Positions 232 through 20,282 of a stretch of 64,000 nt of DNA are shown one piece after another. Position numbers and translations under genes: made by a program. Below the pieces are notes generated by a model. The model saw only the letters and a program-made list of their open reading frames with translations. It ran no database searches and was not told where the DNA came from. The DNA comes from Pseudonocardiaceae bacterium (GTDB taxonomy: Bacteria > Actinomycetota > Actinomycetes > Mycobacteriales > Pseudonocardiaceae): the NCBI GenBank assembly GCA_009377865.1, contig WHTH01000007.1, positions 1 to 64,000 of the forward strand, in the 5' to 3' direction. Position 1 is the stretch's first letter. Each line of letters opens with the position of its first letter.

Positions 232-977
232 TCAAGTTCCCCAGTCGCCGTCCATTGCGAAGGCTTCCTCGACCAGGCGGGCCGCCTCGGCCGGTGACGG
301 CGGGTCGGGCTGCGGTGGCTTCTGCTTGGGCCGTTGCGCGACGCGCGCGACGTTGGAGTCGACCCAGTCCCAGCGAACCGCCGCACTCAGCGTGCCGCTG
401 ATGACCGAGTGGATCTGCCGCACGGTTGACGCCGCCATCGGCCTGCAGACATGGGCCCTGCACTTCTCCGCCGTGCAGTCGTGCTCGCCTTCCGCCTTGT
501 GCTCCACGAACGGTCGCCCGTTGCAGCGAGCCCGGCACCGACGAAGCTCGGCGTAGAGAGTTTCCAGCGTCCGCGCCGTCAGCTTGCTGACCGCCATGTC
601 GCCGAGCGCCGGCTGGATCGTACGTTCGATGTAACCGCGGTAGAGCTGCCGCGTGCTGTCTTCCACCTCGCAAGTCTGCAGCCACTCCTTGAGCGCATGG
701 CCAGCGTCACCGTGGTACTCGGTACGCGCTGCTTGTCGACCTGCGCGAGCAACTTGGTCATCACCTTGTCGGCACGCCGCCGAGCCGCCCGATCGGTGCC
801 CTTGACCGTCTCGGCGAGGTACCGCGGCCTTCCGGTCACCGGGTCGTTGCCCGCGTATACTCGGACCTGCAGCGAGCCTCCCCGTACCCGGACGCTGCCT
901 CGCTGACGGTCCTGCCCCCGGCTGCGCTGGCCATGAGAGAAGAGTAGGGCCGTGTCAATGGACAAGCTCATGGACAA
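232..977 (-). pseudogene. Tyrosine recombinase (phage/ICE integrase) remnant, frameshifted and truncated
   Basis: The first part encodes an Arm-type DNA-binding domain (RGSVRVRGGSLQVRVYAG, then PRYLAETVKGT). After a frame change near 700 it continues as a core-binding SAM-like domain (DSTRQLYRGYIERTIQPALG, then VRQIHSVISGTLSAAVRWDW). One extra C at the CC near 700 would restore a single frame (total length 746, one short of a multiple of three). The C-terminal catalytic domain with the Arg, His and Tyr residues is absent: the frame ends at 232, next to the IS3-type fragment. The gene lies just beyond the 3' end of tRNA-Met, the usual place for an integrase beside its attachment site. It cannot be functional as it stands. 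Confidence 0.8.
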
Positions 978-5909: not shown

Positions 5910-7009
5910 GGGGCGTCGTAGCCTCCGCTCTCGGACTCCAGCGCACGCTTGAGCTCGTCGACGTCGACGCCGATGAGGTTGGCGTACGGGCGGAGCGTGG
6001 TGGCACCCGCATCGTGGGCGGCATAGGTGTCGCGGGCGAGCAGGCCCGGCGGGCGTGGTCGGCTCGCTTCGGTGACGCGGTGCGCGAACTCCGCGCTGCG
6101 ACCAGCCAGTCTCGCCGCCGTGACTCCGGTCATCGTCTTATGGCGGTCGCACATGCCGGCGTCGACCAGCCGGAGGTGCAGCAGCCGGTAGGCCAACGCC
6201 GACGGGGTGACCATGAGGTCGCACGACAGCGCCGCGAAGGCCTCCTCGGTGAGGCCGGTCGACCCGACCGCTCGACGGAGCAAGTCCTCCGGCATCAGAA
6301 AGGCGGCGGCGAAGGAGTTGGCCCGCCTCTCACTCGGGTTCCTCGCTTGCGCCTTGTCGAAGATGTCCTGATCGAGGTGGACGCCTTGATCATCGCCGGC
6401 GAGCAGGTGCCCGAGCTCGTGGGCCAGCGTGAACCGCTGCCGAGCAGGCACCTGGGAGGTCGCCAGCACGACGAGTTTGACCTCGTCCGACGAGGTCGCC
6501 AAGCCGTCGAAGCCCGACCCGAGGTCGACGACGGCCACGTCGGCACCGAATACCTCCTCCACGAGGGCGGCCAGATCCGCCTCCTCGGCGGAGTGGCCAC
6601 GCCGGCTGACTTGTTCGAGTGCTGCCCTCGCCAGCCGGCCACCCTGGTCGACCCAGGTGCCGGTATCGAGGCGGAAGTCAACCGATCGCCAGGGTTGGGG
6701 GAAGCCGAGCTCGGCGATGTCCGATCGCAGTGTGCTGAGCCGCCTGGCTTCGCGGGTCGCGGTGCAGGCGCTGCCACCCGTGGTGCGGGCCGCCAGTGCG
6801 AGGGGCGGCTCGTCGCCGGTGATGAGCCAGTCGACGGTGACCTCGCAGAGGTCCGCGATCCGGGCGAGGTCCAGGGACGAGAAGCGCCGACTGCCGCTCA
6901 ACGACTTCGACAGCTTCGAGTCGTCGAGCCCGATCTTCAGCGCGAAGTCGTGCTGCGTCAGACCAGATGCCTGGATCAGGTCACGCACGCGATCGAGGGT
7001 GTTCGACAC
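5906..7009 (-). CDS. XRE-type HTH protein fused to ImmA/IrrE metallopeptidase
   Basis: A 367-residue protein. Residues 1-70 are an XRE helix-turn-helix (LTQHDFALKIGLDDSKLSKS, then DLARIADLCEVTVDWLI). The second half is an ImmA/IrrE-type zinc peptidase with FTLAHELGHLLAG (HELGH at 197-201) and a following SERRANSFAAAFLMP helix that supplies the third ligand. Such proteins cleave or de-repress partner regulators in mobile elements and stress responses. It starts at GTG 7009 and overlaps the downstream PIN-like gene by 4 nt. The palindrome at 7031-7045 is a likely self-operator. It lies within the island and may serve its maintenance. Confidence 0.85.
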   Translation of the reverse strand: MSNTLDRVRDLIQASGLTQHDFALKIGLDDSKLSKSLSGSRRFSSLDLARIADLCEVTVDWLITGDEPPLALAARTTGGSACTATREARRLSTLRSDIAELGFPQPWRSVDFRLDTGTWVDQGGRLARAALEQVSRRGHSAEEADLAALVEEVFGADVAVVDLGSGFDGLATSSDEVKLVVLATSQVPARQRFTLAHELGHLLAGDDQGVHLDQDIFDKAQARNPSERRANSFAAAFLMPEDLLRRAVGSTGLTEEAFAALSCDLMVTPSALAYRLLHLRLVDAGMCDRHKTMTGVTAARLAGRSAEFAHRVTEASRPRPPGLLARDTYAAHDAGATTLRPYANLIGVDVDELKRALESESGGYDAP

Positions 7010-7030
7010 CGGGCGATACTAGCAACGGTC

Positions 7031-7045
7031 TTGCGAAAATCGCAA
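7031..7045. promoter_or_regulatory. Candidate XRE operator TTGCGA-AAA-TCGCAA
   Basis: A perfect inverted repeat TTGCGAAAATCGCAA ends 22 bp before the GTG start of the XRE/ImmA gene. Its position and symmetry fit a dimeric XRE repressor site overlapping the promoter. It abuts the IS1380 remnant, so the promoter may have been reshaped by that insertion. Confidence 0.55.
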
Positions 7046-8014
7046 AGAGCGGGCAGCATGGCGGGCCGAGAAGGTCCATGGCGATGGCGCCGGGCCCGGG
7101 GGTCGGCACTGACCTGCTCGGGTGCCAGAGCAACTCGGCGGATCAGCAGCCGGGTCGCGGCTGGCCACCAGTCCGGGCAGTAGTCGGCCACCGCGACCTG
7201 CGCACCGGCCATGTCGACCGCGTCGGACCAGTCGGCCTCACCCAGCCCGTCGAGGATCCGCCACAGCGGGGCGATGCGCTTGGCGCCGATGGCGAAGCAG
7301 ACATCGGCGAAGTGCGCGGCGCGGGCCAGCGCCCCGGCGAAGTAGCCGGCGTCGGCGCGCAGCAGTATCCGCCCGGCCCGCGCCGGCGTGGGTAGCGGCG
7401 CCAGCGCCCGGTCCAGCAGCCCCGCAGCGTGTGACCGAGGGTCGTCGTTTCCGGCCATCAGGTCCGCGGCCAGCGCGGTGGCGGTCTCGGCCCAGGTGGC
7501 CACGTGCGGCCGCCCACAGCGTTGGCCCTGGTGGTCGTAGGCAACCCCGCGCTTATGGCGACCGTAGACCTCCACGTCGGTGGTGTCCAGGTCGATGGTG
7601 ACCCGCTCGCACAGCGCCGCGGCACGCCCGCGGGCAGCAGCGCGAGCATCCCGGCACTGATGTCGCCGGTCCCGGTCTCCACCGCCGTGCCAGCCCGGCC
7701 GCCGTCGTCGAACTCAGCCATGCACCGCCGACAGCAGCTGCCCGGCGGCGTCAGCGCGGTAGCGGTCCAGCCCGACCAGAAGCTCCTCCCCGGCCAGCTG
7801 CGCGCACGCCATCCCGACCAGCAGCTCACCGGCCGGACAACCCCCGACCGCGGGTCTTGATCGGCCCGATCGCTGCGTCCAACAGCTTGATCATGTTCAG
7901 CCGGTCGACCAGCTCGGTCACCGCCGTTATCCCCGAAAACCGGGTCACCCTCGGATCCGGCGCGCCGATGCGCACCCGCCGCCGCAACCTGCTGATCTCG
8001 CGTACTCTGCCCAC
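7046..8014 (-). pseudogene. IS1380-family transposase remnant, several frameshifts
   Basis: Pieces in different frames line up with the IS1380 DDE transposase. They are IGAPDPRVTRFSGITAVTEL and LDAAIGPIKTRGRG, then ELLVGMACAQLAGEELLVGL in a second frame, then VEVYGRHKRGVAYDHQGQRC, HVATWAETATALAADL and RILLRADAGYFAG in a third. The C-terminal end is missing, as the sequence runs into the promoter of the XRE gene. At least two frame changes (near 7840 and between 7560 and 7740) make it non-functional. It shows the island has collected insertion sequences. Confidence 0.8.
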
Positions 8015-8244: not shown

Positions 8245-9000
8245 CTACAGGCCGAGCAGGCGGCGCAGCTCGCGGGCGTGCCGCCGAGAGACCTCGACGC
8301 GGCTGCGCCGGTGATCGTCCATGACGAGTACGAGCGTTCCCTTGAAGTCGGGGACGAGCTCTCGCACGTGGTCGAGGTTGACCAGATACGACCGGTGGGT
8401 GCGGAAGAAGTGGCCGTGCAGCCGACGCTCGAGCTCGTTGAGTGAGAAGCCGACCAGGACCCGTTGCTTGTCCAGTTGAAGGTAGGAGTAGCCGCGCGCG
8501 GCGCTGGCGTAGATGATCGCGGACTCGTCGACGAGGACGGTGCGCTCGCCCCGCTGCACCGGGATCCGCCCCAGTTCCGGCGGGTTGTCTGCCGGGGAGG
8601 CGGGCGCCTTCGACTCGTCGTCGTCCGTGCCGGTGAACAGCGCCCGGTCGAGTGCGCGGCCGAGCCGGGTGGCGTCGAACGGTTTCACCAGATAGTCGAC
8701 CGCTTCGAGGTCGAAGGCGTCCACTGCGTGGTCGGGATAGGCGGTGGTGAAGATGACCTTCGGCGGGTTCGGCATGTCGCACAGCGCGGACGCGACGTCG
8801 AGGCCGGTGCCGCCGGGCATGCGGATGTCGAGCAGGACGATGTTGTAGCTCAACGAACGCAGCAGGACGAGGGCTTCCTCGGCGTTGGTGGCCTCGCCGA
8901 TCACCTGGACATGGTCGAAACCGTTGAGGAGGTACCGCAGCTCTTCCCTGGCCGGGGCCTCGTCATCGACGATGAGACAGCGTGTTCGCATCGACATCAC
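8245..9000 (-). CDS. LytTR-family response regulator
   Basis: A 251-residue two-domain regulator. Residues 5-125 are a receiver (LIVDDEAPARE, phosphoacceptor D58 in VLLDIRMPGG, and the conserved Lys in VDYLVKPFDA). Residues 145-250 are a LytTR DNA-binding domain (FFRTHRSYLVNLDHVREL, then SRRHARELRRLL). It starts at GTG 9000 overlapping the kinase stop by 4 nt, so kinase and regulator are co-translated, and both follow a symporter gene. LytS/LytTR pairs of the BtsSR and YpdAB type control carboxylate transporters; the same logic is likely here. Confidence 0.9.
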   Translation of the reverse strand: MMSMRTRCLIVDDEAPAREELRYLLNGFDHVQVIGEATNAEEALVLLRSLSYNIVLLDIRMPGGTGLDVASALCDMPNPPKVIFTTAYPDHAVDAFDLEAVDYLVKPFDATRLGRALDRALFTGTDDDESKAPASPADNPPELGRIPVQRGERTVLVDESAIIYASAARGYSYLQLDKQRVLVGFSLNELERRLHGHFFRTHRSYLVNLDHVRELVPDFKGTLVLVMDDHRRSRVEVSRRHARELRRLLGL

Positions 9001-10292
9001 CCGAGAGGGATCCGCAAGTCGACGCTGGTTCCCTCGCCCTCCTTGGATCGGATGTCGAAGTGGTAGCGCTCCCCGAACAGGGTGTCCAGGCGTTCGGAGA
9101 CATTGCGAAGACCGATGCCCTCGGGCGTCGACACAGCCTCCGAGGTGATCTTCTTCAGCAGGTCGGGGGGCATGCCCACCCCGTCGTCGGATACCCGGAT
9201 CGACGTGGTCCTGGTCAGCGGGTCGACTCGTGCCTTCAAGGTCACCGTGCCGCCTTCCACCTTGTTCGCCAGGCCGTGCTTCACCGCGTTCTCCACGAGT
9301 GGCTGGATGGCCAGCACCGGCACGTGAGCGGTGAGCACCCGCGGATCGACGTCGTAGCGGACGCGCAGGCGATCACCGTAGCGCGCCTGTTCTAGGGAAA
9401 GGTAGGTGCGAACGAAGAAGTACTCCTGCCCGAACTCGGCGAAATGACCGTCCTGACGGACCGCGTACCGGAAGAAGTCGGACAGCCGCAACAACAGCTG
9501 GCGGGCCTCCTCGGGGTCCGTACGCGCCTTGGAGGCGATCGTGTTCAGCGTGTTGAAGAGGAAATGAGGGTTGATCTGGGCACGCAGGGCGCCCAGCTTG
9601 GCATCCACCGCTAGCTTGCGTTCCCGGTCCAGTTCGGCGAGTTCCAGGTGAAGCGACAGGATGCCCGCCATGCCCTCGACCACATCGCGGGAGGGCGGGT
9701 TGTCGTCGACCCGGTAGACCGTGAGCGTTCCGATGATGCGCTTGCCGATCGCGAGCGGCGCCACCACGGCGGTCCGCAGCGGGCAGCCGGGGGCAGCGCA
9801 GCCCAGTGTCCTTCGACTGCGCACGACGAGGGTGCCTGCGCCTGCGAGCACGCGGGCGGAGGTGCGCGGCTGCGGGGGATCGCCGACGTTGTGGTGATCG
9901 GAGCCTGGCCCGACGAACGCGAGGACCCCTTCGCGGTCGGTGATGGCCACCGCGTCGCAGCCGAGGAGGGGGCGCAGCAGCCGGGCAGTGCGCATGGCGG
10001 CCTCCGCGGTCAACCCGGAGCGCAGCGGCATGGGTCGCCCGACGGCGGCGATGGTGTGGCGGGACCGGGAGGCGACGCCGCGCCTGCCGGGCGGGCGTTG
10101 CCCGCTTCGGGTGCTCCTCGGGCCACGGAGTGCCGATGGGTAGGCCAGCGTCAGCAGCAGGGTGAGTCCCACACCAGCGAGGACTGTGGTGCCGACACCG
10201 AGTGCAGGTTCGGTGACGACCTGGGTGACGAGGTAGACCGCGCCCCAGGCGACCGCGAGCGCACCAGCGAGCGGGAGGCTGCCGCTGCTCAT
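8997..10292 (-). CDS. LytS-like sensor histidine kinase
   Basis: A 431-residue kinase. Two hydrophobic segments lie at residues 6-50, a GAF-like region of about 95-215 follows (containing CAAPGCPLRTAVVAPLAI), then a His_kinase domain with the phosphoacceptor in QINPHFLFNTLN (H243) and an ATPase domain with QPLVENAVKHGLAN and SDDGVGMPP. The PHFLFN motif is typical of the LytS/YehU group that pairs with LytTR regulators. Start ATG 10292 overlaps the symporter stop by 4 nt. The translation start chosen removes a long upstream extension that lies inside the symporter gene. It probably senses the imported solute or its metabolite. Confidence 0.88.
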   Translation of the reverse strand: MSSGSLPLAGALAVAWGAVYLVTQVVTEPALGVGTTVLAGVGLTLLLTLAYPSALRGPRSTRSGQRPPGRRGVASRSRHTIAAVGRPMPLRSGLTAEAAMRTARLLRPLLGCDAVAITDREGVLAFVGPGSDHHNVGDPPQPRTSARVLAGAGTLVVRSRRTLGCAAPGCPLRTAVVAPLAIGKRIIGTLTVYRVDDNPPSRDVVEGMAGILSLHLELAELDRERKLAVDAKLGALRAQINPHFLFNTLNTIASKARTDPEEARQLLLRLSDFFRYAVRQDGHFAEFGQEYFFVRTYLSLEQARYGDRLRVRYDVDPRVLTAHVPVLAIQPLVENAVKHGLANKVEGGTVTLKARVDPLTRTTSIRVSDDGVGMPPDLLKKITSEAVSTPEGIGLRNVSERLDTLFGERYHFDIRSKEGEGTSVDLRIPLG

Positions 10293-11980
10293 GGTGCCTC
10301 CTTCGGACGGTCGCTCACCCCGGTGATGGTCAGCCTGGCCAGGCGCTCGGTCTGGCGATCGGCGGCGGTGCCGTGCAGTCGCAGCCACAGGCGCTCGAGC
10401 TCGGCGGGAGGCCTCGTCCGCGACGAGACCGCGATCGTGGCGAGCACGGCCATCGGTCCGGAGATGAGCGTGGGGGTCAAGAATATCTCGGCGAGGCCCT
10501 GGTCCGCGGTGATCAGGCCGGTCGAGAACATCCCGACGGCCACGATGGCGCCGGTGGTCATTCCCGCCGTCGCGCCCGCAGCCGTCGTGCCGCGCCACCA
10601 GATGGCGAGGATCAGCACGGGCGTGAGCGCGGAACCGGCAAGGGCGAAGGCCCATGTCACCATCGACGCCACGATCGAGGGGAGCAGGGCGGTCATCGAC
10701 TCGGGGCGCAGGCCGAGTGCGAGCACCCCGGACAGCAGCGCCACCCCCATGACGGCCAGCCGGCCGGCCCAGATCGCCTGCCGCTGGGTGGCCCTGGGGT
10801 TGAGGTGGCCCTCGTAAACGTCATGACCCCACGACGCGGCCGATGCGAGCAGCAGGCCCGCGATGGTCGACATCACCGCGATCAGCGCGCCGGTGGCGAT
10901 CAGTCCGAGGCCTGGCTGCCCGCCGTAGACCTGCCCCAGCACCAGCAGCGCGTTCTCCGGTACCCGGAGCACACCGTCGACGGTCAGGGCGCCGAGCCAG
11001 GGACGGCCGGCAACCGCCTCGGGTATGAGGCTCCTCGCGGCGGTGCCGAGCATCACCGCGAGCGCGTAGAAGAGCCCCGCCAACCCGAGCACCCAGACCG
11101 TCGTCATCCGCGCCGCATTGCCGGTGGGGCTGGTGAAGTAGCGGTTCATGACATGGGGCAGTCCGGCGGTACCGAGCACGAGCGTGATGATCAGGGCGAA
11201 CTGGCCGAGGCTGCCGTAGCGCGCGCCGGGCTCACCGAAGTAGGACGGCGCGCCCTCGTCGAGCCGGTTCGGCTCGTTGGCGAGCTGCCACCGGCCGTCC
11301 GCCTGACTGGGATTGGCCAGCGGTTGTGCGGCCAGGTCGTCGACGGCGGTCCAGTAGTTGAACCCGGAACCCAGCACGGCGGCGGCCAGCCATACCAGTA
11401 CCGCCAGCAGCAGCAGGAACTGCACCGCCTGGGTCCAGGTGGTTCCGCGCATGCCGCCCAAGACGACGAGGAGGGTGATGACGGTCGTCGACATCAGTAC
11501 GCCGGTCGCGTACGGGGGCAGACCGGCGATGCCGTGGCCGACCAGCAACTCCCAGGTGATACCGCTGGCGACCGCCTGCGGAACCAGGTAGGACACGATG
11601 ACGAGTTGAACGACCGCGACGGCGGTGAGTCGCACAGTTGCGGAGTCGAACCGGCGCCCGAGAAAGTCGGGGATCGAGAACTCGCCGAATCGGCGCAACG
11701 GGGCGGCCACGAACAGCAGTACCGGCACGAAGCCCGCCGCGAAGCCGGTCGCGTACCAGACCCCGTCGAGGCCGGAGGCGTAGACCGCCGCCGCGACGCC
11801 GAGGAAGGAGGCGGCCGAGAAGTAGTCCCCGCAGATCGCGCAGGCATTGGTGACGACGCCGACCCGCTGTCCCGCGAGGTAGAAGTCGAGCGTCGAGGCG
11901 CCCTTCGGCCGCACGGCGAGGGCCAGGGTGAGCGTCACGACGAGCACCACGACGAGGGTGACGATGCTCGCGTCGACCAC
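10289..11980 (-). CDS. Sodium:solute symporter (SSS family, ActP/MctC-like)
   Basis: A 563-residue membrane protein with about 13 hydrophobic segments. It has the SSS-family core: ICGDYFSAASFLG in the second helix, GGMRGTTWTQAVQFLLL, GTAGLPHVMNRYFTS, and GLGLIATGALIAVMSTIAGL. ActP and MctC import acetate, pyruvate or related monocarboxylates with sodium or protons; the substrate here is not provable. Start GTG 11980 overlaps the TAG of the small membrane protein upstream by one base. Its stop overlaps the histidine kinase start, so transport and sensing form one operon of four genes. Confidence 0.88.
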   Translation of the reverse strand: MVDASIVTLVVVLVVTLTLALAVRPKGASTLDFYLAGQRVGVVTNACAICGDYFSAASFLGVAAAVYASGLDGVWYATGFAAGFVPVLLFVAAPLRRFGEFSIPDFLGRRFDSATVRLTAVAVVQLVIVSYLVPQAVASGITWELLVGHGIAGLPPYATGVLMSTTVITLLVVLGGMRGTTWTQAVQFLLLLAVLVWLAAAVLGSGFNYWTAVDDLAAQPLANPSQADGRWQLANEPNRLDEGAPSYFGEPGARYGSLGQFALIITLVLGTAGLPHVMNRYFTSPTGNAARMTTVWVLGLAGLFYALAVMLGTAARSLIPEAVAGRPWLGALTVDGVLRVPENALLVLGQVYGGQPGLGLIATGALIAVMSTIAGLLLASAASWGHDVYEGHLNPRATQRQAIWAGRLAVMGVALLSGVLALGLRPESMTALLPSIVASMVTWAFALAGSALTPVLILAIWWRGTTAAGATAGMTTGAIVAVGMFSTGLITADQGLAEIFLTPTLISGPMAVLATIAVSSRTRPPAELERLWLRLHGTAADRQTERLARLTITGVSDRPKEAP

Positions 11981-12378
11981 TACGCCCCGCCCTCCCGCTC
12001 GGCGGGATCGGTCTCCTGCCCGCCGAGCATGCGGGCCTCGACCGCGGTGGACAGCGATGCGGCGGCGAGACCGAGCAGCCAGAAGAAGATGTAGAAGCCG
12101 AAGGCGGCCATGACGAAGCTGGGGCTCATGCCCCCGATGAGCTGGCCCTCGGACCACCAGTTCAGCGTGAGCGTGAGCCCGGGAACCCCGCCGACGGCGA
12201 CGAGGAACACCGCGAAGTAGCCGAGCGCACCGCGACGCAGGGTCCGAAACGCGGCATCCACCTCGGCGGCCGTGTCGTACTCGTCGAGCGAGTCGTATCC
12301 GGCCGGGATCACCCCATCACGGATCGACCGTGACCGGCGAGCAGCACGCCACCGCACGCGGCAGATCCTACGTCGCAT
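11980..12378 (-). CDS. Small two-helix membrane protein, probable symporter accessory subunit
   Basis: About 132 residues from ATG 12378 (a shorter start at GTG 12312 is also possible). After a basic N-terminus come ALGYFAVFLVAVGGVPG and SFVMAAFGFYIFFWLLGLAA, two membrane segments. Actinobacterial SSS symporters are often preceded by such DUF485-like small subunits, and the one-base overlap with the symporter start supports a joint role. Similarity to DUF485 itself is weak by eye. Confidence 0.65.
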   Translation of the reverse strand: MRRRICRVRWRAARRSRSIRDGVIPAGYDSLDEYDTAAEVDAAFRTLRRGALGYFAVFLVAVGGVPGLTLTLNWWSEGQLIGGMSPSFVMAAFGFYIFFWLLGLAAASLSTAVEARMLGGQETDPAEREGGA

Positions 12379-12394
12379 GCAGAGCTGGAAAGGT

Positions 12395-12817
12395 TCACGA
12401 GGCGGCACGGAGCCGCGTGGCCGCCCTGAGGACGATGACGGCGCCGCCCGCGGCCATGACCAGACCCATGCCGGGCAGCAGCGTTCCCCATCCGGCGGTG
12501 GTCGCGCTGAGCTGGACCAGGCGCGCGACCTGCCACAGCGCGATGACGGCGACGGCGAGGCCGGGCAGCACAGCGTGCGCGAGCGCGATGCGGCGGAACG
12601 GGATCAGCGCGCCGGCGATGGCGAGCATTCCGGCGGACAGGGTCCACAACCCGGGGCCGGCGGTACCCGACAGTGATCCGAGCGGGGTGGACACCCACGG
12701 CAACAGGGAGCCGATGGCGATGACCAGGCCTCCGACGATCATGCCCGTGCTGCCCGCGTGGAGGATACGGGGCCGCCCGTGGCGGGAGTCGGGTTGGTGT
12801 GTGGTCCTCGCCGACAT
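12395..12817 (-). CDS. Conserved membrane protein, four helices, unknown
   Basis: A 140-residue protein with four hydrophobic segments (GMIVGGLVIAIGSLLPWVS, LWTLSAGMLAIAGALI, HAVLPGLAVAVIALW, LLPGMGLVMAAGGAVIVL). I do not recognise the family. It is the first gene of the minus-strand transporter/sensor group, 16 bp before the start chosen for the small subunit. The 248 bp to 13066 form a divergent promoter region shared with the second symporter operon. Confidence 0.6.
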   Translation of the reverse strand: MSARTTHQPDSRHGRPRILHAGSTGMIVGGLVIAIGSLLPWVSTPLGSLSGTAGPGLWTLSAGMLAIAGALIPFRRIALAHAVLPGLAVAVIALWQVARLVQLSATTAGWGTLLPGMGLVMAAGGAVIVLRAATRLRAAS

Positions 12818-13065
12818 ACGGCAACCCTAGGAGCAGATCCGCCCCGCCCCCAATCCCCTCCCGTCAGCGGTCGATCCGTGCCGCCAGCGGTCGCTGAGCG
12901 GCTCCGACCGGTGGGCCGGTCGCCTGGATACCGCTCACGGCCCGCGGAGAACCGGTCGTGAACCGCACGGCCCCGCCCGCCGGTTGATGCTTGCGATCGG
13001 TGTGCTGCTGCGGCTGAAGTCGGATGCCGCAGGGGCAGATCCCTCGGGCACGAAGGGAGCCTGAC

Positions 13066-13389
13066 GTGAGTGACACGGGCCCGGGCAGCGAACCACCGCC
13101 GGGGTCGGCGGCCGAGGATTCGTGGCGACGCGAGTACTGGCGCCGGAACCTCCGGTACATGGTGATCCTGCTGTCCATCTGGTTCATCGTTTCGTTCGGC
13201 CTCGGCATCCTGCTCGTCGAACCCCTCAACGCGGTGATCATCAACGGGTTCCCGCTCGGCTTCTGGTTCGCCCAGCAGGGATCGATCTACACGTTCCTGC
13301 TGCTGATCCTCGTCTACGCGGTGCTCATGGACCGGCTCGATGACAAGTTCGGGGTCAGCGAGCGGGACGGTGAGGGGCGACGGCTATGA
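13066..13389 (+). CDS. DUF4212 small subunit of sodium:solute symporter
   Basis: A 107-residue protein matching the small subunit that accompanies VC_2705-type symporters: YWRRNLRYMVILLSIWFIVS, FGLGILLVEPLN, FPLGFWFAQQGSIYTFLLL and a final VLMDRLDDKFGV. Two membrane helices. Start GTG 13066 has GAAGGGAGC upstream. It overlaps the symporter ATG by 4 nt, so the two subunits are co-translated. Confidence 0.88.
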   Translation: MSDTGPGSEPPPGSAAEDSWRREYWRRNLRYMVILLSIWFIVSFGLGILLVEPLNAVIINGFPLGFWFAQQGSIYTFLLLILVYAVLMDRLDDKFGVSERDGEGRRL

Positions 13390-15068
13390 GTAGCATCCAG
13401 CTGTGGACCCTGATCTTCATCCTCGGGTCCTTCGCCGTCTACATCGGTATCGCGTGGCGCAGCAGGGTCCAGGAGACCGAGGGTTTCTACGTCGCCGGTC
13501 ACGGCATCCCGACCGTCGCGAACGGCGCCGCGATCGCGGCCGACTGGATGTCGGCGGCCTCGTTCATCTCGATGGCCGGACTCATCGCCTTCCTCGGTTC
13601 GGACGGCTCGATGTACCTCATGGGCTGGACCGGCGGCTACGTCCTGCTCGCCCTCCTGATAGCGCCCTACCTGCGCAAGTGGGGCAAGTACACCGTTCCC
13701 GAGTTCGTCGGTGACCGGTACTCCGAACTCGTCCGCACGATCGCCGCGGCCGCAGCCATCATCATCTCGTTCACCTACGTCGTCGGGCAGATGCGTGGTG
13801 GCGGCATCGTGTTCAGCCGGTTCCTCGGCCTCGACATCACCGGTGGCGTCCTGGTGGCTGCGGCGATCATCTTCACGTATGCCGTGCTCGGCGGTATGAA
13901 GGGCATCACCTGGACACAGGTCGCTCAGTACACCGTGCTGATCATCGCGTACCTGATCCCGGCGGCCGCGGTCGCCTGGCAGTTCACCAACATTCCGGTC
14001 CCGCAGGTGACCTTCGGCCAGGTCCTCGACGAGCTCAACGCGCTGAGCACACAACTCGGCCTGGACGCCTACACCCAAGCGTTCACATCGCGGCCCATGA
14101 TCGACGTGCTGCTGGTGACGCTGGCGCTGATGGTCGGTACCGCGGGGCTTCCGCACGTCATCATCCGGTTCTACACGACGAAGAGCGTACGAGGGTCGCG
14201 CTACTCGGCGTTCTGGGCGCTTGCGTTCATCGCCTTGCTGTACACCACCGCACCGGCGGTCGGCGCGTTCACGAAGCTGAACCTGCTGCAAGGGGTGCGT
14301 GGTAAGGCGGTCTCGGACCTACCCAGGTGGGTGCAGAACTGGGCGGAGACCGGCCTGGTGCAGATCAAGGAGGGCGTCGAACGGATCGGCTCGGTGAGCA
14401 ACGATCCCGCGGCGGGCGCTGACCTCACCGTCGACAGCGACATCCTGGTGCTCGCCTCACCCGAGATCGCCGGCCTGCCGGCCCCGATCATCGGGCTCGT
14501 GGCCGCGGGGGGCATGGCGGCCGCGATGTCGACCGCCGCGGGGTTGCTGCTGGTCATCTCGTCGTCGGTGTCGCACGACTTCTACTTCCGGCGGGTCCGC
14601 AGGGCCGCGAGCGACCGGGAACAGCTGCTCGCCGGCCGGATCGCGATGGGTGGGGCCGTGGTCATCGCCGTGCTCGGAGGCGTCAACCCGCCCGCGTTCG
14701 TGGCCCAGGTGGTCGCATTCGCGTTCGGGCTCGCCGCGGCGAGCTTCTTCCCCGCCATCGTTCTCGGGATCTTCTGGAAGCGGTGCAACGCCGCGGGTGC
14801 CGCCGCCGGGATAACCGTCGGGCTCGCCTTCACGATCACCTACATGGTCTACACCCTCGATGTGTTCGGCACGGAGGCCAACCCGTACCTCCTCGGCATC
14901 AGCCCGGAGGGGATCGGCGCCATCGGCGCGCTCGTCAACTTCGTCGTCGCGATCGTGGTGTCGAAGCTGACCGCCCCGCCACCGGCACACCTGGCCGAGC
15001 TGGTCGAGAGCATCCGGTACCCGGCCCCCCGGCGGCTCCCCGCCCACCAGGACGGCGAGGCAGTGTGA
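13386..15068 (+). CDS. Sodium:solute symporter, VC_2705-type large subunit
   Basis: A 560-residue SSS transporter. Key stretches are FYVAGHGIPTVANGAAIAAD, DWMSAASFISMAGLIAF, GGMKGITWTQVAQYTVLIIA, GTAGLPHVIIRFYTT and GGMAAAMSTAAGLLLVIS. This subfamily with a DUF4212 partner is annotated as cation-acetate or general carboxylate symport; the substrate is unproven. It lies back to back with the other symporter operon, so the island carries two related uptake systems in opposite orientation. An IclR regulator follows on the same strand. Confidence 0.9.
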   Translation: MSSIQLWTLIFILGSFAVYIGIAWRSRVQETEGFYVAGHGIPTVANGAAIAADWMSAASFISMAGLIAFLGSDGSMYLMGWTGGYVLLALLIAPYLRKWGKYTVPEFVGDRYSELVRTIAAAAAIIISFTYVVGQMRGGGIVFSRFLGLDITGGVLVAAAIIFTYAVLGGMKGITWTQVAQYTVLIIAYLIPAAAVAWQFTNIPVPQVTFGQVLDELNALSTQLGLDAYTQAFTSRPMIDVLLVTLALMVGTAGLPHVIIRFYTTKSVRGSRYSAFWALAFIALLYTTAPAVGAFTKLNLLQGVRGKAVSDLPRWVQNWAETGLVQIKEGVERIGSVSNDPAAGADLTVDSDILVLASPEIAGLPAPIIGLVAAGGMAAAMSTAAGLLLVISSSVSHDFYFRRVRRAASDREQLLAGRIAMGGAVVIAVLGGVNPPAFVAQVVAFAFGLAAASFFPAIVLGIFWKRCNAAGAAAGITVGLAFTITYMVYTLDVFGTEANPYLLGISPEGIGAIGALVNFVVAIVVSKLTAPPPAHLAELVESIRYPAPRRLPAHQDGEAV

Positions 15069-15240: not shown

Positions 15241-15335
15241 GTTGCCGCGAAACGCTCATCACCGTACACCAAGCGTCCTCGTTGAGCAGAACACGATCTC
15301 GAACACATGAGCTGACAGGCGAACCGAGTGGCGAG

Positions 15336-16139
15336 ATGGATATCCTAGGAGCAAGTGACCCGCACCGGAGCGCTTCGCGGCCGAGTGATCTGAACCGGAG
15401 CGCTTCGCGTGCGCTGCGGATCATCGATGAGTTGGGTAAGCATCCCGACGGTCTCACCGCCAGACGAATCGCCCAGCGCTGCGAGTGCAACCTCGCGACG
15501 ACGTACCACCTCATCCGTACTCTTCGGTACGAGGGATATGTCGGTCAACGTCCCGGTGGCCGATATGTCCTGGGGACGAAGATCGTCAGCCGCTTTCGGG
15601 ACTTCATGGCCGCGATCGCTGGCCCACCCAACCTGCACAGCGTCTTGCAAGAACTCGCCCGGACGACGGGGCAAAGCATCTACCTCAGCCAGCTGACTGG
15701 TAACCAGTTGATTGTGACTGATGTCGTGGAAGGGCCCTACTCGCCCCACCTCGAGGAGCTGATGGTCCATTTCGAGGATTCGGCACACGCAACGGCGCTG
15801 GGAAAGGCACTGCTATGGAGCCTGCCCGGTCGGCACCGGCGAGCATACCTGGGCGAACGGGGCCTGCGACGCTTCACCACAGCCACGGTCACAGATTCTG
15901 AAAAACTGGACGACGAGCTCCATGAGCTTGGGCGCCGGCAGCTGTTCACCGAACACGAGCAGTATCGTCGCGACGTGTGTTGCGGCGCTGTTCTCGTCAC
16001 CGGAAAGACCCGTGGCGCAATAGGTGTCTCATGTGGTGTCGAACGCTGGCGGCAGCTTGCCCCGACATTGACACACCAGCTCCGGCTCGCTGCGGCAGAC
16101 GTAAGCAGCGGCTACAACTGGCAGACAGCGAACCGGTGA
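15336..16139 (+). CDS. IclR-family transcriptional regulator
   Basis: About 267 residues. The N-terminal winged helix reads ALRIIDELGKHPDGLTARRI, then NLATTYHLIRTLRYEGYV. The effector domain follows with the IclR signature region HATALGKALL and RRDVCCGAVLVTG. Start ATG 15336 is chosen; TTG 15282 is also in frame. A 30-bp step contains two copies of ACCGGAGCGCTTCGCG, giving a repeated RSASR near the N-terminus. IclR proteins usually control catabolic operons in response to small acids or aromatics, so likely targets are the symporter upstream and the hydrolase genes downstream. Confidence 0.88.
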   Translation: MDILGASDPHRSASRPSDLNRSASRALRIIDELGKHPDGLTARRIAQRCECNLATTYHLIRTLRYEGYVGQRPGGRYVLGTKIVSRFRDFMAAIAGPPNLHSVLQELARTTGQSIYLSQLTGNQLIVTDVVEGPYSPHLEELMVHFEDSAHATALGKALLWSLPGRHRRAYLGERGLRRFTTATVTDSEKLDDELHELGRRQLFTEHEQYRRDVCCGAVLVTGKTRGAIGVSCGVERWRQLAPTLTHQLRLAAADVSSGYNWQTANR

Positions 16140-16448: not shown

Positions 16449-18248
16449 ATGCGGATACCGCGGATTCCGAGGAAGAACGAACTGGACCCGCCCGAGGACC
16501 CTGCGATTGACGTCCTGCCGGCCTCGAACGGTGAGTACGTGCCCAAGCCTCCGAGCCGACGGCAGCGGGCGATCATGGCGCTGCAGGACCAGAAGATCGA
16601 AGAGCAGCGCCACAAGTTCGGGTTGAGCCGTCGTGACTTCGTCCGTACTGCGGCGGCCATGGGAATCGGAGTGTGGGCGGTCGACCAGGTGACGGGCGGG
16701 TTGTGGGGCCGGTATTCCTGGGCCGATGGCACCGCCACTACCGACGCTTGCGATCTCGAGAACCCCGGTTCGCAGCTGGCCAACCTGCCGGGCGAGTTCA
16801 TCTTGGACACTCAGGGCCATCACCTCGACGACGAAGGGCGGTGGCGGGTCGAGAACCCCGGCTTCAACGAGTTCCTGATGACATGGACCTCGCAGGCGAT
16901 GGGTGAGCATCCGGGGGCGAACCCGCCGCGCGGGTTCGGCGCCGGCGAGGTGGACCCGATCGCGAACCTCAATCGGTTCCATTACTTCAAGGAGATGTTC
17001 CTGGACTCATCGACGACGGTGAGCCTGCTTACTGCCCTGCCCAACCTTCCTGACGCGACGAACATCACCCCTATTGCCCACGCCAAGGAGACGATGGACC
17101 TGGCCAACAGCCTGTCCGGATCGCAGCGATGTTTCATTCACGCCTTCGCCCAGCCCAACCGCGGGTTCATGGGCCGTGACCGCAAGCCGCTTTACCAGGA
17201 CGAAGACTTCGCCTGGATGGAGGAAACGGCCAGAACGATTGGACCGTCCGGGTGGAAACTCTACTGCGGCTGGGGCGACGGCGGTCCGTCATCGAAACAC
17301 AGCTCGGGAGCGATGCCCGCCATGAACGGCTGGTGGTTCGACGACGACAACGGGATCGCGATTACCGAACACATCCGTAACCTGTCCCAGAAGTACGGCC
17401 TGCCGCCCGTTATCTGCACCCACAAGGGCTTGGCTTTCAACGGTGTCTTCGACTCCGCGAAGTTCTCCCCTCGCGACATGGGTGTGATCGGCCGGTTGTA
17501 CCCGGACGTGACGTTCTACACATATCACTCGGGATACGACGGCGAGCGCCAGTTGCCTTACCCGGGCGACGACAAGGTGAATTCGTCCAACCGAGGAGTC
17601 GATGCATTTATCAAGAGCCTGCGGGAAAACGGTATGGACGCCACCAGATTCGTCCCCGCCGGTCTCACGCACGGCAACTCTCCCAACATGTACGCTGAAC
17701 TCGGCACGGCGTGGTGGAACGTGATGCACGATGCCGATCAGGCAGCGCATATGCTGGGTAAACTCCTCACTTATGTGGGTCCGCGGCGCATCGTTCTGGG
17801 TACCGACTGCATCTGGTATGGTGCGCCGCAGCCCCAGTTTGTGATGTTGCGGGCGTTGCAGTTCAGTCCCAGGGCGAAGCAGCTCTATAACCTGCCTTAC
17901 GGCCTGGATGGTGACCGCTGGGACCCGCAGTGCAATGCGCTGTCCGGCGCCAGCTACACGTCTCCGCACCCGAACGTCCCGGACTGGCCCACGGACGGCA
18001 GCGTGCATCCCGAGCGCACCATTCGTAACGGGATTTTCGGACGCAATGCAGCGGCCGCCTACGGCCTCGACCCCGATGTCGTCCGGAACAAGATCTCCTG
18101 CGATGACGTCAACAAGCTGCGTGACAGCTATGTGCAGAACCCGGGCACCACGATGGAACGCACACCCCACAAGACCAACAAGATCCTCGGACCTCGCACG
18201 CGAAGGGAATTCTTCAATTACGTGAACTCCCCTGACTATTCCCCGTGA
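16449..18248 (+). CDS. Amidohydrolase-2 family metal hydrolase with Tat-like signal
   Basis: A 599-residue protein. After an unusually long 60-residue n-region comes SRRDFVRTAAAMGIGVWAV, a twin-arginine-type signal, so folded export with metal bound is likely. The body resembles amidohydrolase-2 (decarboxylase/hydrolase) barrels: LDTQGHHLDD near the start of the barrel, ICTHKGLAF, FYTYHSGYDG and VLGTDCIWYG offer His and Asp ligands. It is longer than common family members (300-350). Start ATG 16449 has GGGGAGG 6 bp upstream. The substrate is unknown. It begins a group with an unknown protein and a cupredoxin. Confidence 0.75.
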   Translation: MRIPRIPRKNELDPPEDPAIDVLPASNGEYVPKPPSRRQRAIMALQDQKIEEQRHKFGLSRRDFVRTAAAMGIGVWAVDQVTGGLWGRYSWADGTATTDACDLENPGSQLANLPGEFILDTQGHHLDDEGRWRVENPGFNEFLMTWTSQAMGEHPGANPPRGFGAGEVDPIANLNRFHYFKEMFLDSSTTVSLLTALPNLPDATNITPIAHAKETMDLANSLSGSQRCFIHAFAQPNRGFMGRDRKPLYQDEDFAWMEETARTIGPSGWKLYCGWGDGGPSSKHSSGAMPAMNGWWFDDDNGIAITEHIRNLSQKYGLPPVICTHKGLAFNGVFDSAKFSPRDMGVIGRLYPDVTFYTYHSGYDGERQLPYPGDDKVNSSNRGVDAFIKSLRENGMDATRFVPAGLTHGNSPNMYAELGTAWWNVMHDADQAAHMLGKLLTYVGPRRIVLGTDCIWYGAPQPQFVMLRALQFSPRAKQLYNLPYGLDGDRWDPQCNALSGASYTSPHPNVPDWPTDGSVHPERTIRNGIFGRNAAAAYGLDPDVVRNKISCDDVNKLRDSYVQNPGTTMERTPHKTNKILGPRTRREFFNYVNSPDYSP

Positions 18249-18298
18249 CACGGGCCGGCGGCGAGACTTCGACGAGCGAGAGATGAACGGAGAGGATT

Positions 18299-19012
18299 AT
18301 GCGCGGCAGAGTGAACGGGCCGATCATACCCATCCCCGACCCCCTTGGTGGGCGTGCGGATGACGAGCGGTCCGCGAACCGAGCACCCGACCCTGTCGAC
18401 CAGGCTCCCGATGTTGTCGACGAGGGAAGGCGTGCGGTCGAGGACGTGCCGAACCCGACGGAAGAGGCACCGGATGCACCACAGGAACCGGAGTCGTCAC
18501 AGGCGGGAGCGGCAACCGTCCATCGTCCCCCGTATCGAGCCGGTCCCAGTGGCGGCGACAACCACACTGTTACCAAGAACAACCCGCAAGCCGGGACAGT
18601 GATGGTGCTGGAGCACAACACACGGCAGGCGGCCTTCGTGCACTGCATCGGCAACGGTCCGATGTCGATGTTGCGAGTCGAGCACCCGGTAACGGAGCCG
18701 CTGTCGTCGGTGAAGATCGACTACTCGAGCGCCGTCCTGACCGACTCCGTCGTGATGAACGCGGTGGTCACCGGGTCGTCGAGCGGATGGCTCGGCCAGG
18801 GCGCCTCCCTGGGACCGAAGGAAGCACCCGATGACTGGGCGGGCACGATCGACATCCCGTTGGACAGGTCGCCCGAGGCCGGTGAGACCTTGACGATCCA
18901 GTTCGGCTTGCAGACTCACGCCGGTTGCCTGCCGTACCCAGTGCTCGGCTTGCCCGGCAGTCGCCCAGCTGAGACCGGCCGAGCCGCCTTCCCGCGAGTG
19001 TCCGTCAGTTAG
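18299..19012 (+). CDS. Unknown protein of the hydrolase/cupredoxin cluster
   Basis: A 237-residue protein I do not recognise. Residues 15-75 are rich in Pro, Glu and Asp (a flexible segment). Residues 85-215 look like a beta-rich domain (TVMVLEHNTRQAAFVHCIG, then SVKIDYSSAVLTDSVV, and ETLTIQFGLQTHAGCLPYPV) with two cysteines. No signal peptide is visible. GGAGAGG precedes ATG 18299. Placed 50 bp after the hydrolase and 41 bp before the cupredoxin, it is probably cotranscribed with both and may act with them. Confidence 0.65.
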   Translation: MRGRVNGPIIPIPDPLGGRADDERSANRAPDPVDQAPDVVDEGRRAVEDVPNPTEEAPDAPQEPESSQAGAATVHRPPYRAGPSGGDNHTVTKNNPQAGTVMVLEHNTRQAAFVHCIGNGPMSMLRVEHPVTEPLSSVKIDYSSAVLTDSVVMNAVVTGSSSGWLGQGASLGPKEAPDDWAGTIDIPLDRSPEAGETLTIQFGLQTHAGCLPYPVLGLPGSRPAETGRAAFPRVSVS

Positions 19013-19053
19013 CGAGAGCCATCACACCGGGTCAGAGAAAGGGAAGTGCCGCG

Positions 19054-19521
19054 ATGAAGGGTAGTCTGGCAAGACGAGGTAAGTCATTCTTCCGTAACTG
19101 GTGGAAGGTGGGTCTCGCTGTAGTGGTGCTGCTACCTGTTTTGGGTGGTGGTGCCTACGTGGCTGCCGACCCGATCACGGGCCAGGATCACCCGGGCGAT
19201 GTCACTGCCATAGAGAACAACTACGTCCCCGGCACGGTTCGGGTGCAGCAGGGCGAGGCCTTCAGCTTCGGCAATTACGATCCGCGCGCCGGCATTCCGG
19301 CCCACAGTGTCGTCGAGATCGTGCCCGGCTGCACCAGCCCGCCCTACACGGGCAACAACCCCGGCCAAGGCACATGCGATTACCCGAGGTTCAGTAGCGG
19401 CCTCGTTGACCATGGCCACGTGCACGATGTGAACGGGGTCGAATCGCTACCGCCGGGAACCTATGAGTTCACTTGTCAAGTCCACCCCGATATGAAGGGC
19501 ACCTTGATCGTGGAAGAATAA
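19054..19521 (+). CDS. Membrane-anchored cupredoxin (type 1 copper protein)
   Basis: A 155-residue protein with a basic N-terminus and one membrane anchor (VGLAVVVLLPVLGGGAYVAA), then a small beta-barrel domain. The type 1 copper ligands are visible: His84 in IPAHSVVEIV and Cys141, His144 and Met147 in FTCQVHPDMKGTL. Cys93 and Cys108 may form a disulfide. Such proteins carry electrons outside the membrane. As the third gene of this cluster it suggests that the exported hydrolase pathway involves a redox step or copper handling; that is inference. Confidence 0.85.
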   Translation: MKGSLARRGKSFFRNWWKVGLAVVVLLPVLGGGAYVAADPITGQDHPGDVTAIENNYVPGTVRVQQGEAFSFGNYDPRAGIPAHSVVEIVPGCTSPPYTGNNPGQGTCDYPRFSSGLVDHGHVHDVNGVESLPPGTYEFTCQVHPDMKGTLIVEE

Positions 19522-19598
19522 TGGCTCCTTCTTCTTGAAGCGGCCGACGCGACCCTCACCGCATCCGAGATCGATCTGAGCCCCACCTGCTGGCCGCG

Positions 19599-20282
19599 TT
19601 GGCCGCGGTGCCCGATCCGCGGTCACGGCGCGGGGTCCGTCATCGGTTCGCCGCGATCCTGGGGGTGGGGGTGTGCGCCGTGTTGGCCGGTGCGCGCACC
19701 TTTGCCGCGATTGCTGAGTGGACCCAGGACCTGCCGGTCGGGGTACGAGTCCGGCTCGGGCTGCGTCGCCGGGCGCCGTGTGAGTCGACGATCCGCCGCG
19801 TTTTGCAGGCCGTCGACGCCGACGCTCTGGATGGGGCCGCCTCGGCCTGGCTGGCGGCGCGATCCGCACCGGTGGAGGCGACCGGACCGGCAGCGGCACC
19901 GCAGGGGCGGATGATCAGCATCGACGGCAAGAGCGCCCGCGGTGCTCGCGGCCCCGACGGCCGTCCGGCGCATCTGCTGGCGGCGTTCGACCAGGCCAGC
20001 GGGGTCGTGCTCGGGCAGACCTCGGTGGACGGCAAGACCGACGAGATCACCGCGTTCGCCCCGTTGCTGGACCGCATCGACCTGACCGGCGCGATCGTCA
20101 CCGCCGATGCCCTGCACACCCAGCACCGCCACGCCGACTATCTGCACGTCCGCGGCGCGCACTACGTGCTGACGGTCAAGCGCAACCAGCCCAGCCTGCA
20201 CCACCAGCTCGCGAGCTTGCCGTGGGCGCAGATCCCCGCCGTCGACATAACCCAGGACAAGGGCCACGGCCGGGTCTGTTGA
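19599..20282 (+). pseudogene. ISAs1-family transposase, truncated at the 3' end
   Basis: 227 residues of an ISAs1 (H-repeat type) DDE transposase: AVPDPRSRRGVRHRFAAILG, GARTFAAIAEW, STIRRVLQAVDADALDGA, SIDGKSARGARG, TDEITAFAPLLDRIDLTGAI, VTADALHTQ and HYVLTVKRNQPSL. The conserved C-terminal third after DKGHGR is missing: the frame stops after VC and runs into unrelated sequence. The N-terminus extends upstream in frame (LLAALAAVPD), so the true start is before 19599. It lies at the tRNA-proximal end of the island, where it has apparently replaced most of the integrase gene. Confidence 0.8.

Follow-up and report, generated by a model that had tools for sequence, protein, structure and literature searches.

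A predicted Tat-exported amidohydrolase genetically linked to copper and haem redox proteins in actinobacteria

Introduction

A contig of a Pseudonocardiaceae bacterium (GenBank assembly GCA_009377865.1, contig WHTH01000007.1) raises the question of whether three closely spaced genes, for an amidohydrolase-like protein (A), a protein without assigned family (B) and a cupredoxin (C), act together outside the cytoplasm or are merely neighbours. They lie in the stretch of 64,000 nucleotides that we analysed and refer to as the window; positions given without a locus label are those of the window. A sequence-only reading of this DNA had suggested an exported system that corresponds to no named pathway, and we found no paper describing such a set in the openly licensed literature.

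Results

The three genes were found on the plus strand at the places where the sequence-only reading had put them: A, a Tat-type Amidohydro_2 protein of 599 aa, at 16449..18248; B, 237 aa, at 18299..19012; and C, a type 1 cupredoxin of 155 aa with an N-terminal signal or anchor, at 19054..19521. The gaps measure 50 bases between A and B and 41 bases between B and C. For A, we preferred the start codon ATG 16449 because a GGGGAGG sequence is located between the alternative ATG 16434 and ATG 16449. Upstream of A on the same strand is the gene of an IclR-family regulator (15282..16139; Pfam IclR_C 1.1e-19, HTH_IclR 1.3e-11), with an uncertain start codon (the earliest in frame is TTG 15282). At the downstream edge of the cassette lies a plus-strand remnant of an ISAs1-family transposase gene (19554..20282; NCBIfam transpos_ISAs1 1.4e-41) that is truncated and spans about two thirds of the profile (positions 1-207 of 314). 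Fragments that by eye resemble integrase and transposase genes lie towards the left of the window (232-977 and 6976-7575). An Rfam search of the region gave no match, and a scan for sigma-70 promoters found none.

The composition of the cassette is foreign. Its G+C content from the IclR gene to C is 0.627 versus 0.711 in the rest of the window, and 0 of 299 windows of the same size were lower; GC3 of the IclR gene is 0.68 versus 0.87-0.93 in most neighbouring genes. In Haloechinothrix alba (H. alba; L003) we found the same order A-B-C, with identities of 83% for A, 65% for B and 72% for C. An IclR homologue (58% identity; L003:12159-12899) adjoins the three genes there on the opposite strand, and none was found at the locus of genome G049. 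The regulator may control A, B and C in the window.

A block of genes in the order LytTR, kinase, symporter, small protein, X, DUF4212, symporter is common to the window, H. alba, G003 and G049. In the window it occupies 8245-15068 and comprises the LytTR regulator, the kinase, two sodium:solute symporters and small partner genes. The block is contiguous and free of the cassette in G003 and G049. In H. alba the cassette lies inside the block, and in the window it lies at the downstream end. Because the set occupies two different positions in one symporter block, it appears to move as a unit. Its position next to the same symporters may reflect a tie in function to the uptake of solutes, or else a rearrangement at this site.

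The sequence-only reading had been made to depend beforehand on co-occurrence of the families in other genomes, and such co-occurrence was found. A was present in three of 297 genomes of a first family sample. When 390 genomes of the family were searched, the profiles of A and B matched the same three, with the two genes adjacent in each. In a sample of 396 genomes of the phylum, B was confined to two, the window genome and G336, where it adjoins A; it was never seen without A. A search of 22 genomes with B gave strong matches in four genomes, in which B is located beside A, and weak matches in two more. We conclude that the association of A, B and C goes beyond that of chance neighbours.

The A proteins fall into two groups. 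The long ones, including A of the window, form one clade (100/100 support) apart from the short relatives. A cupredoxin gene adjoins six of the seven long A genes and 0/8 of the short ones (Fisher p 0.0014, a generous value because the close relationship of H. alba to the window makes these two loci non-independent). The seventh long locus, that of G049, has a MauG-like di-haem protein where the others have the cupredoxin. The long A subfamily shows genetic linkage with redox proteins of the copper or haem type at 7/7 loci. Seven long loci in all are known, and the class-level searches around G321 and G302 covered 5 and 3 genomes. A survey of the neighbours of eight short relatives gave no recurring partner.

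The signs of a mobile cassette (low G+C, the IS remnant downstream and two insertion points) would also fit genes that merely travel together. A would then be an ordinary exported hydrolase, and C would deliver or buffer copper or serve the respiratory chain, with no electron coupling between them. That amidohydrolase-2 reactions are non-redox (PMC8187880) agrees with this explanation. However, a cupredoxin or a di-haem protein is found near A time and again, at seven loci whose gene orders differ, and the short A relatives lack such neighbours. We regard such uncoupled travel as possible, though it is not the explanation we would expect.

By itself, A of the window reached 15.5 bits with Pfam Amidohydro_2 (PF04909), under the curated cut-off of 26.4. 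Its assignment to the amidohydrolase-2 family rests on relatives, 14/15 of which in our alignment matched at E <= 0.01 (best 1.9e-12). With regard to the TIM-barrel fold and mononuclear metal site of that family, a PDB sequence search with A gave no match, and an AlphaFold2 model from two sequences (the window and H. alba) had a pLDDT of 29. Conserved across the 15 aligned sequences are D-x-Q-x-H, H231, K270, D298-D299, H325, H360 and G-T-D453. Judging by this conservation, Q122, H124, H231, K270, D298, D299, H325, H360 and D453 are possible metal or active-site residues.

In the metal-site motif of the family, H124, H231, H325, H360 and D453 are retained, and the first position is Gln in 15/15 sequences. 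This replacement of the first metal His of HxH would be consistent with a catalytically dead amidohydrolase fold that serves in binding and might, for instance, hold B and C as a scaffold. Yet H124, H231, K270, H325, H360 and D453 are all conserved over 15 divergent sequences. Moreover, known decarboxylases of the superfamily carry Glu or His at the position of the Gln: Glu19 in LigW, Glu8 (with His10) in gamma-resorcylate decarboxylase and His12 (with His14) in iso-orotate decarboxylase (PMC8187880). Glu at the first position is thus already compatible with catalysis, and a dead enzyme is unlikely.

A had also been described as carrying an internal RRDFVR signal, and the motif SRRDFVRT is indeed present at residues 60-67 (RR at residues 61-62). 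Behind a conserved leader of ~60 residues, the twin Arg and the Phe after it show no variation among the 15 rows of the alignment. A moderately hydrophobic stretch follows, with an A-x-A-like site in the long members. The sequence of A therefore has the features of a Tat substrate (S/T-R-R-x-F, hydrophobic stretch and cleavage site); the Pfam and TIGR Tat models scored it under their cut-offs. On this basis A is predicted to be a Tat export substrate, in line with the earlier proposal of an exported set. In the alignment, many short relatives have a Cys just behind the hydrophobic stretch; those at L040-L047, from other actinobacteria, look Tat-lipoprotein-like for this reason. Among plasmids, A had one relative, on a Sphingobium plasmid; no relatives were found in phages, and a search of viral contigs found none.

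B is a protein family without known relatives, whereas all other parts of the system belong to known folds or families. Neither Pfam nor NCBIfam gave a match at E <= 1, and a plasmid search found no relatives. Its N-terminal ~70 residues are Pro/Glu-rich (18299-18510), as the sequence-only reading had noted; the remainder is probably a beta-rich domain, as also proposed there and predicted here at low confidence (model from the window and H. alba sequences only, pLDDT 48). C116, C210 and H129 are conserved in the alignment of relatives. No match under 0.001 came out of a fold search with this poor model. In the window, B lacks a hydrophobic signal peptide (hydropathy of the best 15-residue stretch 0.16), unlike its relatives in G049 and G336, which carry Sec-type signal peptides (hydropathy 2.1 and 2.4). 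We considered a frameshift as the reason and rejected it: the other frames upstream of and across the start encode no evident signal peptide.

In G049, A and B are followed by the MauG/MbnH-like di-haem protein (L006:10492-11535), which adjoins them in the place of C, and by an apparent cytochrome c maturation cluster (seen by eye). The di-haem protein matches the MauG and MbnH models below cut-off. This neighbour brings to mind the maturation or acquisition of a copper protein, in which B would bind copper like CorA/MbnP and be modified by the di-haem protein as by MbnH/MauG, with A and C assisting. CorA (4bz4) is among the many weak fold matches of B, but it ranked 32nd among unrelated beta-sandwiches, and the B model is poor. 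Furthermore, profiles do not place B in the MbnP/CorA family, as it is without a Pfam or NCBIfam match, and the di-haem gene was seen at one locus only. We consider such a maturation system very unlikely.

C matched Pfam Cupredoxin_1 at 9.1e-8 (32.5 bits, above the cut-off of 27) and has the complete set of type 1 copper ligands (H84, C141, H144, M147). The sequence-only reading had called C a membrane-anchored type 1 copper protein; the four ligands were borne out, but the anchoring is not clear, as VAA-D at residues 36-39 resembles a signal peptidase I site and C may be cleaved rather than anchored. C is the single Cupredoxin_1 match in the 4.0 Mb of the window genome, and none was found in G037, a genome of the same genus.

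In other actinobacterial classes, the neighbours of A are more elaborate. In G321, G336 and G302, the gene immediately upstream of A, encoded on the same strand, is that of a large secreted protein or of a cupredoxin beside one; in G348, the tail of a large secreted protein is found at the contig edge. Five such proteins (L036:8252-10255, L037:9374-11632, L037:12509-14332, L039:368-2281 and L039:4304-6271) all have the motifs HxHH, MxHN, HxHPGG and YxxM, in that order, followed at the C-terminus by an amicyanin-like cupredoxin domain with CxxHPxM. Their main part has no Pfam match. Distant matches were found in G661, G431, G453, G039 and G049, none in the window genome, and a plasmid search gave no relatives.

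The order of the putative ligands in the large proteins (HH, H, HxH, M) resembles that of PHM, in which H107/H108/H172 and H242/H244/M314 form the set (PMC6123673); it is present in all five sequences, and a chance resemblance is possible. No match to Cu2_monooxygen up to E 10 and no PDB sequence match was obtained, so that the PHM-like nature is suggested by the ligand pattern and not by the sequence searches. The large proteins are possibly a new copper oxygenase family. PQQ-type propellers were detected by Pfam in the A clusters of G321 and G302 (loci L036 and L039), and PQQ-like proteins were seen by eye in G336; at the window locus, no PQQ protein was seen. Because the window genome gave no match to the large copper-protein family and no PQQ protein was seen at its locus, no redox partner of C was identified in the window.

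Discussion

The presented results lead us to propose that A-B-C, joined by the IclR gene in the window and in H. alba, is a catabolic module that has spread horizontally and acts outside the cytoplasm. A would serve a copper-linked oxidation pathway as an exported hydrolase or decarboxylase that depends on a metal; we see about equal grounds for accepting and for doubting this proposal. A would fold inside the cell, be exported by Tat and be released. As a mononuclear metal-dependent amidohydrolase-2 enzyme, it would then hydrolyse or decarboxylate an oxidised small molecule, its own step being a non-redox cleavage. C would be the copper electron carrier for the oxidation step of the pathway, an electron route that we infer together with its direction. 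B would have an accessory role specific to its clade, probably by binding A or the substrate, and it might exit the cell bound to A, as Tat could permit. In G049, the MauG-like di-haem protein would substitute for C.

In the other classes, oxidation would probably fall to the PQQ-type dehydrogenases encoded beside A and to the large secreted proteins, read as PHM-like copper oxygenases to which a cupredoxin domain is fused. We offer tentatively, as the bolder and less probable extension, a degradation pathway outside the cytoplasm in which these oxygenases, each equipped with its cupredoxin domain, would act in sequence with PQQ-type dehydrogenases and a Q-x-H amidohydrolase exported by Tat; A-B-C would be a reduced mobile form of it.

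Joint inheritance in a few distant actinobacteria and the copper and PQQ-type neighbours make A-B-C look like part of a real, unstudied extracellular pathway. An amidohydrolase subfamily predicted to be exported, and so far uncharacterised, is now tied to redox proteins of the copper and PQQ types; B, which has no known relatives, gains a partner in A. If the proposal is true for the larger clusters, bacteria would have a route in which both oxidation and bond cleavage are extracytoplasmic, with the fused cupredoxin domain hinting at how a PHM-like copper enzyme could be supplied with electrons.

The large neighbours in G321, G336 and G302 share the candidate ligand order HH...H...HxH...M with the PHM/DBM copper monooxygenases (PMC6123673). 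They differ from these enzymes by having no Pfam or PDB sequence match, by the fused C-terminal cupredoxin domain and by their absence from the window genome. C shares all four type 1 copper ligands with cupredoxins of the amicyanin/plastocyanin type (PF13473, PF00127). However, with 18 of 110 bits it does not qualify as the amicyanin equivalog, and no methylamine dehydrogenase genes were seen beside it.

The short Tat-type relatives (~420-500 aa), including that on the Sphingobium baderi plasmid NZ_CP128176, have the leader, the RR motif and the active-site pattern of A. In contrast to the long A proteins, they belong to a separate clade, are without cupredoxin neighbours and in many cases have a lipobox-like Cys instead of A-x-A; the S. 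baderi gene is located among acyl-CoA genes. ACMSD, gamma-resorcylate decarboxylase and LigW belong to the same Pfam family (PF04909) as A, judged by weak, repeated matches, and the order of motifs is alike: D-x-[QEH]-x-H, His residues further on and a terminal G-T-D. A differs from them by its Tat-type leader with ~60 conserved residues before RR and by Q-x-H in place of E/H-x-H, and the long A clade differs by ~100 extra residues and by its linkage to copper and haem proteins.
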